DNA of 64,000 nucleotides, from positions 1,939,336 to 2,003,335 of the forward strand of contig NZ_JANTPT010000001.1 of the NCBI RefSeq assembly GCF_024753565.1, written 5' to 3'. The first letter of the stretch is position 1. Each line of letters begins with the position of its first letter. The notes beneath the pieces are model-generated. The model saw nothing but the letters and a program-made list of their open reading frames with translations. It did no database searches and was not told the DNA's origin. The DNA is from Mechercharimyces sp. CAU 1602. Its GTDB lineage: Bacteria; Bacillota; Bacilli; Thermoactinomycetales; JANTPT01. Positions 15,187-38,960 of this stretch are shown piece by piece. The position numbers were made by a program, and so were the translations under genes.

Positions 15187-15998
15187 GAAATCGCCCTCTC
15201 TTTAATAATTGAATCTACCAAGTGAACAGGAGACATATCACCGAGTGAAAACCACTCTAGCATCCGATTTCGCTTAAACAACTTCGATGTCATCTCTGCT
15301 TTGCTCAATCCATTCTTTTGTAGAGCTAGGGTTTCATCTACTAACCAGTAGAGAAAATCTAGCTTCTTTTTTAAAGCCTCCGCTCCGTTTTCTACTCTAC
15401 CCGCATGACCACAAAAAACGGTAGTAATCCGATACGCCAATATTTTTTCAATGGAAGCAATCATCTCTATCACAGATTCTCCTCGAATTCCTGTCGCCAG
15501 CCTTGTGCCCAAAAAGAGATCACCTGCAAATAGCCATCCGGTACTCTCTTCATATAAGCAGTGATGATCATCACAATGCCCAGGAGTATGAAGGATTTGG
15601 AATCTATAACGAGGAGTTACAACCTCTCCTGTGGTTTCTTCCCCTGTTATCCACTGTGGCGACCCCCACGCTGTACGACGATAGTATGGAATCACATCCA
15701 TCGCATGAATGGTATCAATCGTTCTCTTAGTCATATATAGAGGCACGTCAAATCGCTTAACCAACCATGATGCATTGCCCACGTGATCCTCGTGATGGTG
15801 TGTGATCATTATTTGCTTAGGTGTAACCTGACGCACAAACTCTTCCACCGCTTTCTTCCCACGAGGAGGACCGGTATCTATCATCAATCCATCTACCATG
15901 TATGTACAAAAATTCATGTAGCTGCCTAAAGATCGATAGCTACAACGCATCGAAACTACATCATCTCGATGATCCATCCGAATGATATAATCACTCAT
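15183..15998 (-). CDS. Metallo-beta-lactamase-fold hydrolase
   Basis: A 271-residue MBL-fold enzyme with the dinuclear zinc motif THHHEDHVGN, a later histidine in LHTPGHCDDHH and the aspartate in LFAGDLFLG. These features fit the glyoxalase II-like / MBL hydrolase group, which hydrolyses thioesters, lactones or related bonds. GGAAGG precedes the ATG. It is the first gene of a two-gene unit with the VOC protein, which suggests a joint small-molecule detoxification step, although the substrate is unknown. Confidence 0.88.
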   Translation of the reverse strand: MSDYIIRMDHRDDVVSMRCSYRSLGSYMNFCTYMVDGLMIDTGPPRGKKAVEEFVRQVTPKQIMITHHHEDHVGNASWLVKRFDVPLYMTKRTIDTIHAMDVIPYYRRTAWGSPQWITGEETTGEVVTPRYRFQILHTPGHCDDHHCLYEESTGWLFAGDLFLGTRLATGIRGESVIEMIASIEKILAYRITTVFCGHAGRVENGAEALKKKLDFLYWLVDETLALQKNGLSKAEMTSKLFKRNRMLEWFSLGDMSPVHLVDSIIKERAIS

Positions 15999-28003: not shown

Positions 28004-29248
28004 TCAAGATGTATGAACACTTTCTTCTTCTTCAAGTAGGATTCCTGCTGGACCAAAGAATTCATAATGTAGATGCTCTTCCTTGACCCCCATCTGAAGA
28101 AGCATTCTATATATCGCCTTCATGAAAGGCACAGGCCCACAGAAATATACTTCCACTTCCCGACCTGGCCAAATACTTCGGAGCTGCTCTTCCTTCACCC
28201 GTCCGACGAACTGGCAATGTTCCCATTCATCATCCCCCACTGGAACCTCATACCATGTAAAAGAACTCACTTGCGAATGCTCATCTGCTAGTTCTTTCAC
28301 TTCCTTACGAAAAACATGGCTTTGTCCATTTTGAGTGGCGTGAATAAAAGTAACTTGACGGTGAGGCTGCTTTTCGATCACCGTATTTAGCATAGCCATC
28401 ATCGGCGTAAGACCGACACCACCACTAATGAGCACAACCGGTTTCTCTATTTCCATATTAAGCACAAACTCCCCTGCCGGTGCGCTTAACAGCAAAGTAT
28501 CTCCTTCGCCGACCTGTTCGTGCAGATAATGAGAAACCTGACCTGCTGGCGTTTGTTCCGTCTCCCCTTCCTTCTTAACAGTAATGCGGTAGTACTTTCT
28601 CCCGGGAGCGTCAGATAAGCTATACTGGCGAATATGGGTATTCTTCTGACCCGGTATCTCCATCTTAACACTAATATATTGCCCAGGTTGGAACGTAGCC
28701 AGTTCCGCCCCGTCTACTGGACGAAGATAAAACGAAGTAGTGGTTTCACTTTCACTCACCTTTTTTTCTACTGTAAAAGGCTTAAACCCTTCCCATCCCC
28801 CGGTCTGCGTTTCCGCTTGCTGGTATAATTCTTGCTCTACCTGAATAAACACTCCAGCGATCACTCCGTACGCTTCTTCCCATGCTTCCATAATCTCTGG
28901 TGTAGCATCCTCTTGTAATGCTTCTTTGATGGCAAGGAGTAAATATTTCCCTACAATCGGATATTGCTCTGGCTTTACCCCTAAACTACGGTGCTTTTGC
29001 GCCGCAACCATCACTTGTGGCAACACCTCTTCTAGTCGGTCTATATGAAGAGCGGCATTGTACACCATATTGGCTAACGCCTCTGGCTGTCTTCCCCGCT
29101 TTTGATTAGCATGATTAAAAATATTAAGAAGCTCTGGGTGTTCTGTAAACATGCGTTCATAAAAATTTTTAGAAATCGTTGTGCCATGCTTTTTTAGTAC
29201 CGGTGCAGTCGCCTTAATCAACTCAATCGTATGTGCTTGTAACATCAT
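28004..29248 (-). CDS. hmp: Flavohaemoglobin, nitric oxide dioxygenase
   Basis: A 414-residue Hmp that converts nitric oxide to nitrate with NADH and O2. An N-terminal globin domain (distal region FYERMFTEHPELLNIFNHAN, proximal histidine in AAQKHRSLGVKPEQYPIVG) is followed by a ferredoxin-reductase FAD domain (HIRQYSLSD) and an NAD domain (ISGGVGLTPMMAML, YFCGPVPFM). By comparison with Bacillus Hmp the protein begins at MLQAHTIELIK. Two adjoining ATGs (29248 and 29245) follow GGGGCG; I give the first. The promoter carries a CRP/FNR-type operator. Confidence 0.96.
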   Translation of the reverse strand: MMLQAHTIELIKATAPVLKKHGTTISKNFYERMFTEHPELLNIFNHANQKRGRQPEALANMVYNAALHIDRLEEVLPQVMVAAQKHRSLGVKPEQYPIVGKYLLLAIKEALQEDATPEIMEAWEEAYGVIAGVFIQVEQELYQQAETQTGGWEGFKPFTVEKKVSESETTTSFYLRPVDGAELATFQPGQYISVKMEIPGQKNTHIRQYSLSDAPGRKYYRITVKKEGETEQTPAGQVSHYLHEQVGEGDTLLLSAPAGEFVLNMEIEKPVVLISGGVGLTPMMAMLNTVIEKQPHRQVTFIHATQNGQSHVFRKEVKELADEHSQVSSFTWYEVPVGDDEWEHCQFVGRVKEEQLRSIWPGREVEVYFCGPVPFMKAIYRMLLQMGVKEEHLHYEFFGPAGILLEEEESVHTS

Positions 29249-29300
29249 TGATCGCCCCATTCATACTGGTTGGCAAGGATTGTATTCCCTGCTTTCCTAT

Positions 29301-29343
29301 ATTGTACGAGAGCGATTCACTTTCCTATGTGATGAGAATCACA
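29301..29343 (-). promoter_or_regulatory. CRP/FNR-type operator and -10 element of hmp
   Basis: TGTGATGAGAATCACA (29328-29343) is a perfect TGTGA-N6-TCACA dyad, within a 9-bp inverted repeat with a 4-nt centre. On the minus strand a -10 TACAAT lies at 29301-29306. No good -35 is present, and the dyad is centred about 41.5 bp before the predicted start near 29294. That is the spacing of class II activation by CRP/FNR proteins. Confidence 0.75.
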
Positions 29344-29371
29344 TAGCAGGTGACGAAATAGTGACAGTGAC

Positions 29372-30388
29372 TCAACTGCTACCACATCCTCCTCCACCGC
29401 AGCTACTACCACAACTACTGCCACTATCTCCACAGTCAACACCACTACAACTACTACCGCATCCGCTCGTCGAGTTCAATCCAGAGTCCGATCGGGGTGA
29501 ATAACCACCCAGCGCATACACAGTGTTGTATATACTGTTATACTGATTCGCATGATGTAAGGAGAGGAAGAGACACATTGAAAGTGTGCCGATCACTCCT
29601 TCTGTCACGGGGAGCGTAGAATGATATTGTTTCGGGTTAATACCACTTTGTTCCACCCTCACTTTCATATCTTCGTATACTTTTATCTGGTAACGACCCA
29701 TTTCTTCGGCCAGCACTCTTGTATCTACTACACCTTCTGATGAACGCCAAGCTATAGGAACAACCCCTGTATTGTTATGAGCGAACCCAGCTAACCACTC
29801 CTCAGGCATAGGAATGGCAAAAAACTTCCCCCATGTCTTATTACTAAACTTAGTGGGGAAATAGAGATAACAATAAACCAAATCAAAACAGAGTCGCTGT
29901 TCAGGAGTAGATGCCTCCCCTTTCGCATGGGGTTCGTGGTGGAGATATGTACCGAGAAAGGCATGTGTAAATTTTTCGTATTCACGGGTAAACATCAACA
30001 TCTCATGCCAGATTTTATCAACATCAGCACTATACATTTCAACCGAGCGTAGTACAGCTGTCATGACAAAAAAACGCTTCGTCTCAAACCAAAAGTTTTC
30101 CCATTCGCTATCTGTCCACTTCTGCTCAGCTTGAACGCGCTTACGCACCTTCGCTATGTATTCTTCATCCAAGGAATTTTCCAGTCGAGTAACTATCGCA
30201 TACATCTCATCGTAAAATTTAATACTATGCTGTTGAATACCCAGATTCTCCATAGTGTATAAACGAGCCCGTTCAGCTAGTATAGCCCCCTCGCGTCGAG
30301 CACGCTCATCAGATATATATTTGACCACACTGATAACCACAATGATCATAAAGAAAATAACGAATACAAGCATCATCATCCATTCCAT
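29372..30388 (-). CDS. Membrane-anchored GRDP-like protein with Cys/Gly-rich tail
   Basis: A 338-residue protein with an N-terminal membrane anchor (MLVFVIFFMIIVVISVVKYI), a helical charged region, and a motif VDKIWHEMLMFTREYEKF then FLGTYLHHEP that matches the pattern DxxWH...TxxY...G.(x)HHxP of glycine-rich domain-containing (GRDP/DUF1399) proteins. The C terminus is a low-complexity Gly/Cys/Ser tail with eight Cys residues in about 29. Function is unknown; the tail could bind metal or form disulfides if extracytoplasmic. GAGAGG precedes the ATG. It lies upstream of hmp, which has its own promoter. Confidence 0.7.
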   Translation of the reverse strand: MEWMMMLVFVIFFMIIVVISVVKYISDERARREGAILAERARLYTMENLGIQQHSIKFYDEMYAIVTRLENSLDEEYIAKVRKRVQAEQKWTDSEWENFWFETKRFFVMTAVLRSVEMYSADVDKIWHEMLMFTREYEKFTHAFLGTYLHHEPHAKGEASTPEQRLCFDLVYCYLYFPTKFSNKTWGKFFAIPMPEEWLAGFAHNNTGVVPIAWRSSEGVVDTRVLAEEMGRYQIKVYEDMKVRVEQSGINPKQYHSTLPVTEGVIGTLSMCLFLSLHHANQYNSIYNTVYALGGYSPRSDSGLNSTSGCGSSCSGVDCGDSGSSCGSSCGGGGCGSS

Positions 30389-38261: not shown

Positions 38262-38960
38262 CTAATCCCCCTTTTCTTTCTGTACTTCATGAGCTAATCC
38301 TTCTACATTAGCAATACAAATCCACCCCCGTCCTGTAATGATAATTCCCCGCTTTTTATACTGCTTTATTAACCGAGTCACTCCTTCACGGGATACCCCC
38401 GCTACATCGGCCAAATCTTGGTGGGTGATGGGGAAATGGATATTTACACTTCCACCTTCCTCCATTTCCATTCCCTCTACCAATTGTAATAACGCGCGAG
38501 CTACACGGTAGGAGCTGCTATGATGAGATTGATCGCGCAACGCACGCTGAAGATCTTGCAATTTTTTTCCCATCACTCGCATCACCTTAATCGCAATGGT
38601 AGGAGATTGTGTGAGAAGAGCTTCAAAATCGTGCATAGGAATCACAAATAGTCGGCTTTTCTCTAAGGCGATTGCCGTTCCCGGATAAGGAGCGGAATCA
38701 AAAAAGCCGATATGGGGGAACATTTCCCCCGCCTTAATAAATGACATCACTTGCTCGTGTCCATTTGCATCCGTCTTAAACGCTTTAACAAACCCCTCAT
38801 ATAAAAAATAGATGAAGGCGCGTTCCCCGCCCTCATTAAAAATAACTTCTCGTTTATGATATTCTTTCATTAATGCTAATCCAGATAAAGATTGAAGCTC
38901 CCGTTCTGTCAGTGTTGCAAAAAAGGGAAGTGAGCGTAAAATGGGAAGAATTGAGGCCAA
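38262..38960 (-). CDS. CRP/FNR-family transcriptional regulator
   Basis: A 232-residue regulator with an N-terminal cyclic-nucleotide-binding-type beta barrel (FNEGGERAFIYFLYEGFVKA), a long dimer helix and a C-terminal winged helix (THQDLADVAGVSREGVTRLI). The recognition helix has the S-R-E-x-V-x-R spacing used by CRP to read TGTGA. It lacks the cysteine cluster of Bacillus or E. coli FNR; a single Cys sits near the C terminus, so it is probably not a [4Fe-4S] sensor of that type. The start is a TTG with AAAGGTG 8 nt upstream. The hmp operator is a plausible target. Confidence 0.9.
   Translation of the reverse strand: MASILPILRSLPFFATLTERELQSLSGLALMKEYHKREVIFNEGGERAFIYFLYEGFVKAFKTDANGHEQVMSFIKAGEMFPHIGFFDSAPYPGTAIALEKSRLFVIPMHDFEALLTQSPTIAIKVMRVMGKKLQDLQRALRDQSHHSSSYRVARALLQLVEGMEMEEGGSVNIHFPITHQDLADVAGVSREGVTRLIKQYKKRGIIITGRGWICIANVEGLAHEVQKEKGD

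Follow-up and report, generated by a model that had tools for sequence, protein, structure and literature searches.

A putative class II CRP/FNR-dependent promoter for the flavohemoprotein gene hmp in the Bacilli

Control of hmp in Bacillus is, in the textbook account, exerted by NsrR together with ResDE. NsrR, as described in Bacillus and Streptomyces, acts on the same gene in the same bacterial class as the locus presented here, often from an adjacent gene; however, it is an Rrf2-type Fe-S repressor with a different operator, and among the loci examined, NsrR and a perfect CRP dyad are mutually exclusive. The Fnr protein of Bacillus subtilis offers a second point of comparison, since its class II promoters place the binding site at -41.5. 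The promoters of narGHJI and narK carry the same TGTGA-N6-TCACA consensus (PMC8151001 Table 1) as the present locus, but here the target is hmp, the regulator is without the Fe-S cysteines, and the regulon looks like a single gene. DNR, NnrR and HcpR are also CRP/FNR activators of NO-detoxification genes and have norB, hcp and hmp among their neighbours (PMC1274295; for HcpR, PMC12750200). They differ in belonging to other CRP subfamilies, and work on them has centred on Gram-negative or anaerobic bacteria. HcpR and DNR detect NO through heme, a mode of sensing that is hypothetical for the regulator considered here. CooA, a heme CO sensor (1ft9), shares the CRP fold and is recognized by a His77-type ligand in a GDMFCMHS loop together with bound heme; its targets are the coo genes, in contrast to hmp as the presumed target here. 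The open-access literature yielded no prior report of hmp being controlled by a CRP/FNR protein in Paenibacillus, Brevibacillus or the Bacillales.

The locus lies in a 64-kb window, which is the whole stretch of DNA that was analysed. The hmp gene occupies 28004–29248 on the minus strand and encodes an NO-inducible flavohemoprotein with globin, FAD and NAD domains, matching the NF009805 equivalog with 552 bits against a cut-off of 432. The reading frame is open up to 29260; however, an alignment of Hmp proteins (MLxxxTIEIIKS) indicates that translation probably starts at the ATGATG at 29248/29245, which would leave a 5' leader of about 46–49 nt. Just 5' of hmp and on the same strand, 29372–30388 (minus) encodes a 338-aa membrane-like protein with a Gly/Cys-rich carboxy terminus for which no match was found in Pfam or NCBIfam.

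The initial annotation had described, upstream of hmp, a perfect TGTGA-N6-TCACA dyad centred about 41.5 bp before the predicted start, a TACAAT -10 element without a good -35, and hence class II CRP/FNR geometry. All of these features were recovered. The dyad core (29328–29343, centre 29335.5, no mismatches) is contained within a perfect 9-bp inverted repeat, CTATGTGAT-GAGA-ATCACATAG, at 29325–29346. The TACAAT element reads from 29306 to 29301 on the minus strand, 21 bp 3' of the dyad, and predicts a transcription start near 29294, relative to which the dyad centre falls at exactly -41.5. The -35 position is occupied by CATAGG, and no -35 element is present there. A class II promoter is identified by a two-fold CRP/FNR site with its centre at -41.5 and a -10 element with no functional -35, and the hmp sequence has this combination. 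The core is the sole match without mismatches in the window; two dyads with one mismatch, at 15560 and 62626, are both intragenic.

Conservation of this arrangement was examined in 121 genomes, consisting of the window's own genome and its relatives, 63 of which encode Hmp. Within 300 bp upstream of a first set of 65 hmp genes, a perfect dyad was present in 30 and a dyad with at most one mismatch in 45, compared with 0.03% and 1.2%, respectively, when hmp upstream regions were shuffled. The same dyad conservation was seen in another set of 80 named loci, which came from Brevibacillus, Paenibacillus, Cohnella, Neobacillus, Cytobacillus, Fictibacillus, Alicyclobacillus, Alkalihalophilus and others. 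When the 91 distinct hmp dyads were considered, a -10 element (at least 4 of 6 positions) was found at a gap of 20–22 bp in 82, as against 10–29 at other gaps, while only three had a -35 element of at least 4 of 6; together, these counts are the signature of class II activation. Judged from this recurrence, the class II geometry at hmp is not the coincidence of one sequence. Several hmp promoters in Neobacillus and related bacteria (L253, L255, L259, L261, L262, L264 and L290) have an asymmetric dyad, TGTGATTTNNATCACTTA, with the usual -10 spacing and no adjoining regulator gene; this form is probably read by another CRP/Fnr protein.

A candidate reader of the dyad is encoded within the window at 38262–38960 (minus strand), 9 kb from hmp and not adjacent to it. 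The 232-aa product contains a cNMP-binding domain (PF00027, 1.8e-20) and an HTH_Crp_2 domain (PF13545, 1.4e-17; also PF00325), and the predicted model (pLDDT = 86), which best matches GlxR and MtbCRP in the PDB, shows a full CRP fold including a winged helix-turn-helix. The attributes of the CRP/FNR family, namely the cNMP sensor domain, the dimer helix, the winged helix-turn-helix and an R-E-x-x-x-R motif for TGTGA recognition, are all present. The recognition helix proposed in the initial annotation was found as SREGVTR, and its remark that FNR-type cysteines are missing also held, with one Cys in the entire protein. Since the Fe-S FNR proteins of the E. coli or Bacillus type have at least three cluster cysteines, located at the N- or C-terminus, the product is not an Fe-S FNR, and it scores 70.9 bits against the NCBIfam Fnr model (cut-off 228). 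Assignment as a cAMP-CRP was likewise rejected: where the Glu72/Arg82-Ser83 pocket would be, the aligned stretch GEMFPHIGFFDSAPYPGTAIA has neither the Glu nor the Arg, and the score against the NCBIfam CRP model is 74 bits (cut-off 266).

The protein, which has a GEMFPH motif, is a member of a "GD/EMFPH" subfamily of CRPs often encoded beside hmp or other NO/N-oxide genes. Its nearest relatives, at 37–43% identity, include CRPs beside or near hmp in eight genomes (G096, G009, G030, G004, G016, G026, G033 and G008). A quick tree placed it in a supported clade (SH-aLRT 98) with those of G096, G009, G030, G016 and G026, several of which are beside hmp. The neighbours of other members include genes for hemerythrin, NorB, Hcp, a Cu-oxidase, NarI and NirJ-like proteins. 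The feature by which DNR, NnrR and HcpR-type regulators are known, NO genes as targets and neighbours, is thus also seen here, with hmp as the presumed target and relatives beside hmp, NorB, Hcp, hemerythrin and Cu-oxidase genes. The 38262–38960 product was the only cNMP-domain protein and the only strong HTH_Crp_2 match found in its genome; other apparent HTH_Crp_2 matches are GntR, CodY-like, MarR or ArsR proteins. With no other CRP/FNR-type protein found, it is the natural candidate for reading the dyad, although the genome is 97.9% complete and another regulator could be missing.

The genome scan suggested in the initial annotation was performed by pattern searches of the 2.93-Mb genome with the reversed pattern as a control. 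The perfect dyad occurs five times (control, one), and the full pattern of dyad, 21–22 bp and TANNNT once, at hmp (control, none). In six relatives (G009, G015, G018, G030, G037 and G040) the full pattern also finds only hmp. The looser searches gave 74 matches against 56 in the control at one mismatch and 146 against 134 at three; because these counts barely exceed the control, weak sites were left uninterpreted. None of the other perfect dyads was retained as a member of the regulon. The dyad before cydA (L002, G000:C1:573305) is without a class II -10 element and is half Rex-like, that at nadB overlaps the ribosome binding site and start, a third (L005) sits within a coding frame, and the last (L003) is intergenic with no clear target. 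The dyads before or at nadB (L001, G000:C1:35817 and 35978) and the cydA dyad resemble Rex sites more than class II CRP sites. No dyad was found before the regulator gene itself. One relative, G034, has 13 perfect class II patterns at 13 loci (L358–L381), many of which are TGTGAYCAAARTCACA; these could belong to an expanded regulon or to a family of repeats.

These data are probably accounted for by a class II CRP/FNR-dependent hmp promoter whose operator, the dyad, is read by the 38262–38960 protein, which switches on Hmp. A dimer of the protein would bind TGTGAT-N4-ATCACA at -41.5, where it would substitute for the absent -35 element and bring RNA polymerase to the TACAAT -10 element. Activation would then switch on Hmp, an NO dioxygenase. 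The signal may be NO or nitrosative stress, judging from the target and from relatives whose neighbours are hmp, norB, hcp, hemerythrin or copper-oxidase genes.

The reader might instead be a CRP/FNR-family protein that, like B. subtilis Fnr, responds to oxygen or redox state and controls a general anaerobic regulon. Class II placement is a feature of the B. subtilis Fnr targets as well. The box at hmp equals their consensus TGTGANNNNNNTCACA (PMC8151001 Table 1). The window protein, however, is without the C-terminal Cys set of the Bacillus-type Fnr-like relatives (for example L145 and L146), and a general anaerobic regulon is at odds with a full class II pattern that occurs in this genome at hmp only. 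This alternative is considered unlikely.

Another alternative reader is Rex, the core of whose site is likewise TGTGA-N6-TCACA. As an NAD+/NADH-responsive repressor, Rex would act on hmp at low NADH through sites resembling TTGTGAA-N4-TTCACAA. Rex is encoded in the window's genome, where the cydA and nadB dyads have a Rex-like appearance, and the interval between the ldh1 and hmp genes of Staphylococcus aureus contains a Rex site (PMC2883068). TGTGA-N6-TCACA sequences before anaerobic genes of S. aureus, some of which are bound in vitro by the CRP/FNR protein ArcR, proved to be Rex sites (PMC2883068). In each arm of the hmp site, however, positions 1 and 7 deviate from the Rex consensus, and substitutions there weaken S. 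aureus Rex binding (PMC2883068). In 61 perfect hmp dyads, A occupies position 6 once and T occupies position 11 three times, whereas the CRP-like T6 and A11 are present in 44 and 52, respectively. A repressor would also leave the fixed -41.5 spacing, the absent -35 element and the linkage to CRP genes unexplained, so that Rex is very unlikely to be what this dyad serves.

The identity of the gene adjoining hmp also bears on its control. In relatives, this gene may code for NsrR or for a CRP, which is either full-length or compact; at other loci it codes for neither. A dyad with at most one mismatch precedes 51 of 52 CRP-linked hmp genes and is perfect in 39 of them; for NsrR-linked hmp genes, the corresponding numbers are 4 of 39 with one mismatch and 0 of 39 perfect. 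The difference in perfect dyads (Fisher P = 8e-15) is a guide only, since related genomes are not statistically independent and at least one strain occurs in both hmp sets. In these loci, the presence of the dyad appears to track an adjacent CRP/FNR gene and to exclude an adjacent NsrR gene. That hmp is under NsrR with ResDE as in B. subtilis, the dyad being incidental, is highly improbable: NsrR/hmp pairs are common in Bacilli (PMC1274295; the 39 loci of this comparison) and a ResD orthologue is present in the genome, yet none of the three Rrf2 proteins encoded there has the NsrR cysteine motif C-x7-C-x5-C or is beside hmp, and CRP-linked hmp genes retain the dyad, which is never perfect in the 39 NsrR-linked ones. 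Within the limits of an assembly that is 97.9% complete, NsrR control of the window's hmp thus appears to be excluded. The initial annotation had considered CRP/FNR control of hmp to be notable; its reading of activation is supported at the level of sequence, but in this part of the Bacilli such control seems to be general and not peculiar to this genome.

Many relatives pair hmp with a compact CRP of about 165 aa in place of the full-length protein (hmp-linked loci L151–L163 and L249–L324; for example, L249:5185–5691). Forty-five such sequences, taken from open frames of mostly 165–200 aa, form one branch with a support of 100. The sensor domain and the long helix are both retained, together with a helix-turn-helix ending at (S/R)RETVNRLLR; the wing strands are absent, and an AlphaFold model of a compact CRP stops at the recognition helix. 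Eight genomes (G018, G025, G015, G023, G031, G034, G037 and G040) encode no cNMP-domain protein other than the compact CRP, and in four of these (G015, G018, G037 and G040) the single full class II pattern is at hmp. The two CRP subfamilies therefore appear to use the same operator. A PHHSL loop is invariant in 23 aligned compact CRPs, and its second His aligns with His77 of CooA (sequence according to 1ft9). The His of GEMFPH in the window regulator, which is common to the compact CRPs, is located one residue earlier (GEMFPH-I). With a shared His at or near the position of CooA His77, heme-based NO sensing by these CRPs is a fair hypothesis, not a result.

The hmp promoter has a second phased element, TCAC-N7-TCAC, a direct repeat with an 11-bp period at 29350–29364 (minus strand; about -56 to -70). 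TCAC is found exactly at dyad -21 in 49 of 91 hmp promoters, often repeated 11 bp on, compared with 0–3 occurrences at nearly all other offsets. At divergent loci, the element overlaps the ribosome binding site of the compact CRP gene; it is also found where there is no divergent gene, as in Paenibacillus, G009 and G030. A repeat spaced in this way would fit an OmpR-type regulator, and ResD is a candidate: it controls hmp in B. subtilis, its box TTTGTGAAT corresponds to ATTCACAAA on the opposite strand, and the genome encodes an orthologue with 70% identity. As a lead only, the repeat is possibly a ResD-type box for a second activator of the same promoter, and ResD may still act there alongside the CRP site.

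Class II activation by CRP/FNR proteins is itself known; its application to hmp in Bacilli by a protein that is neither an Fe-S FNR nor a cAMP-CRP appears to be new. A wider scheme is offered tentatively and may well need revision. Many Bacilli may have replaced NsrR repression of hmp by a dedicated, near single-target CRP/FNR activation, in which full-length "FPH" and compact wingless CRPs of about 165 aa would share an operator. Both would sense NO, perhaps through heme on the GExxPH(H) His, and many of the promoters would be co-controlled by a phased ResD-type box.

The comparisons indicate that a large part of the Bacilli, including Paenibacillus, Brevibacillus, Cohnella, Neobacillus and the order of the window, may use CRP/FNR-type activation of hmp in place of NsrR with ResDE. 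Such control predicts a logic of activation instead of derepression, as well as a new group of CRP proteins that are candidate NO sensors. Since several genomes appear to have a single target promoter, ligand, binding and activation could be cleanly testable. The wingless minimal CRP, in turn, would be simple enough for probing the limits of CRP-DNA recognition.
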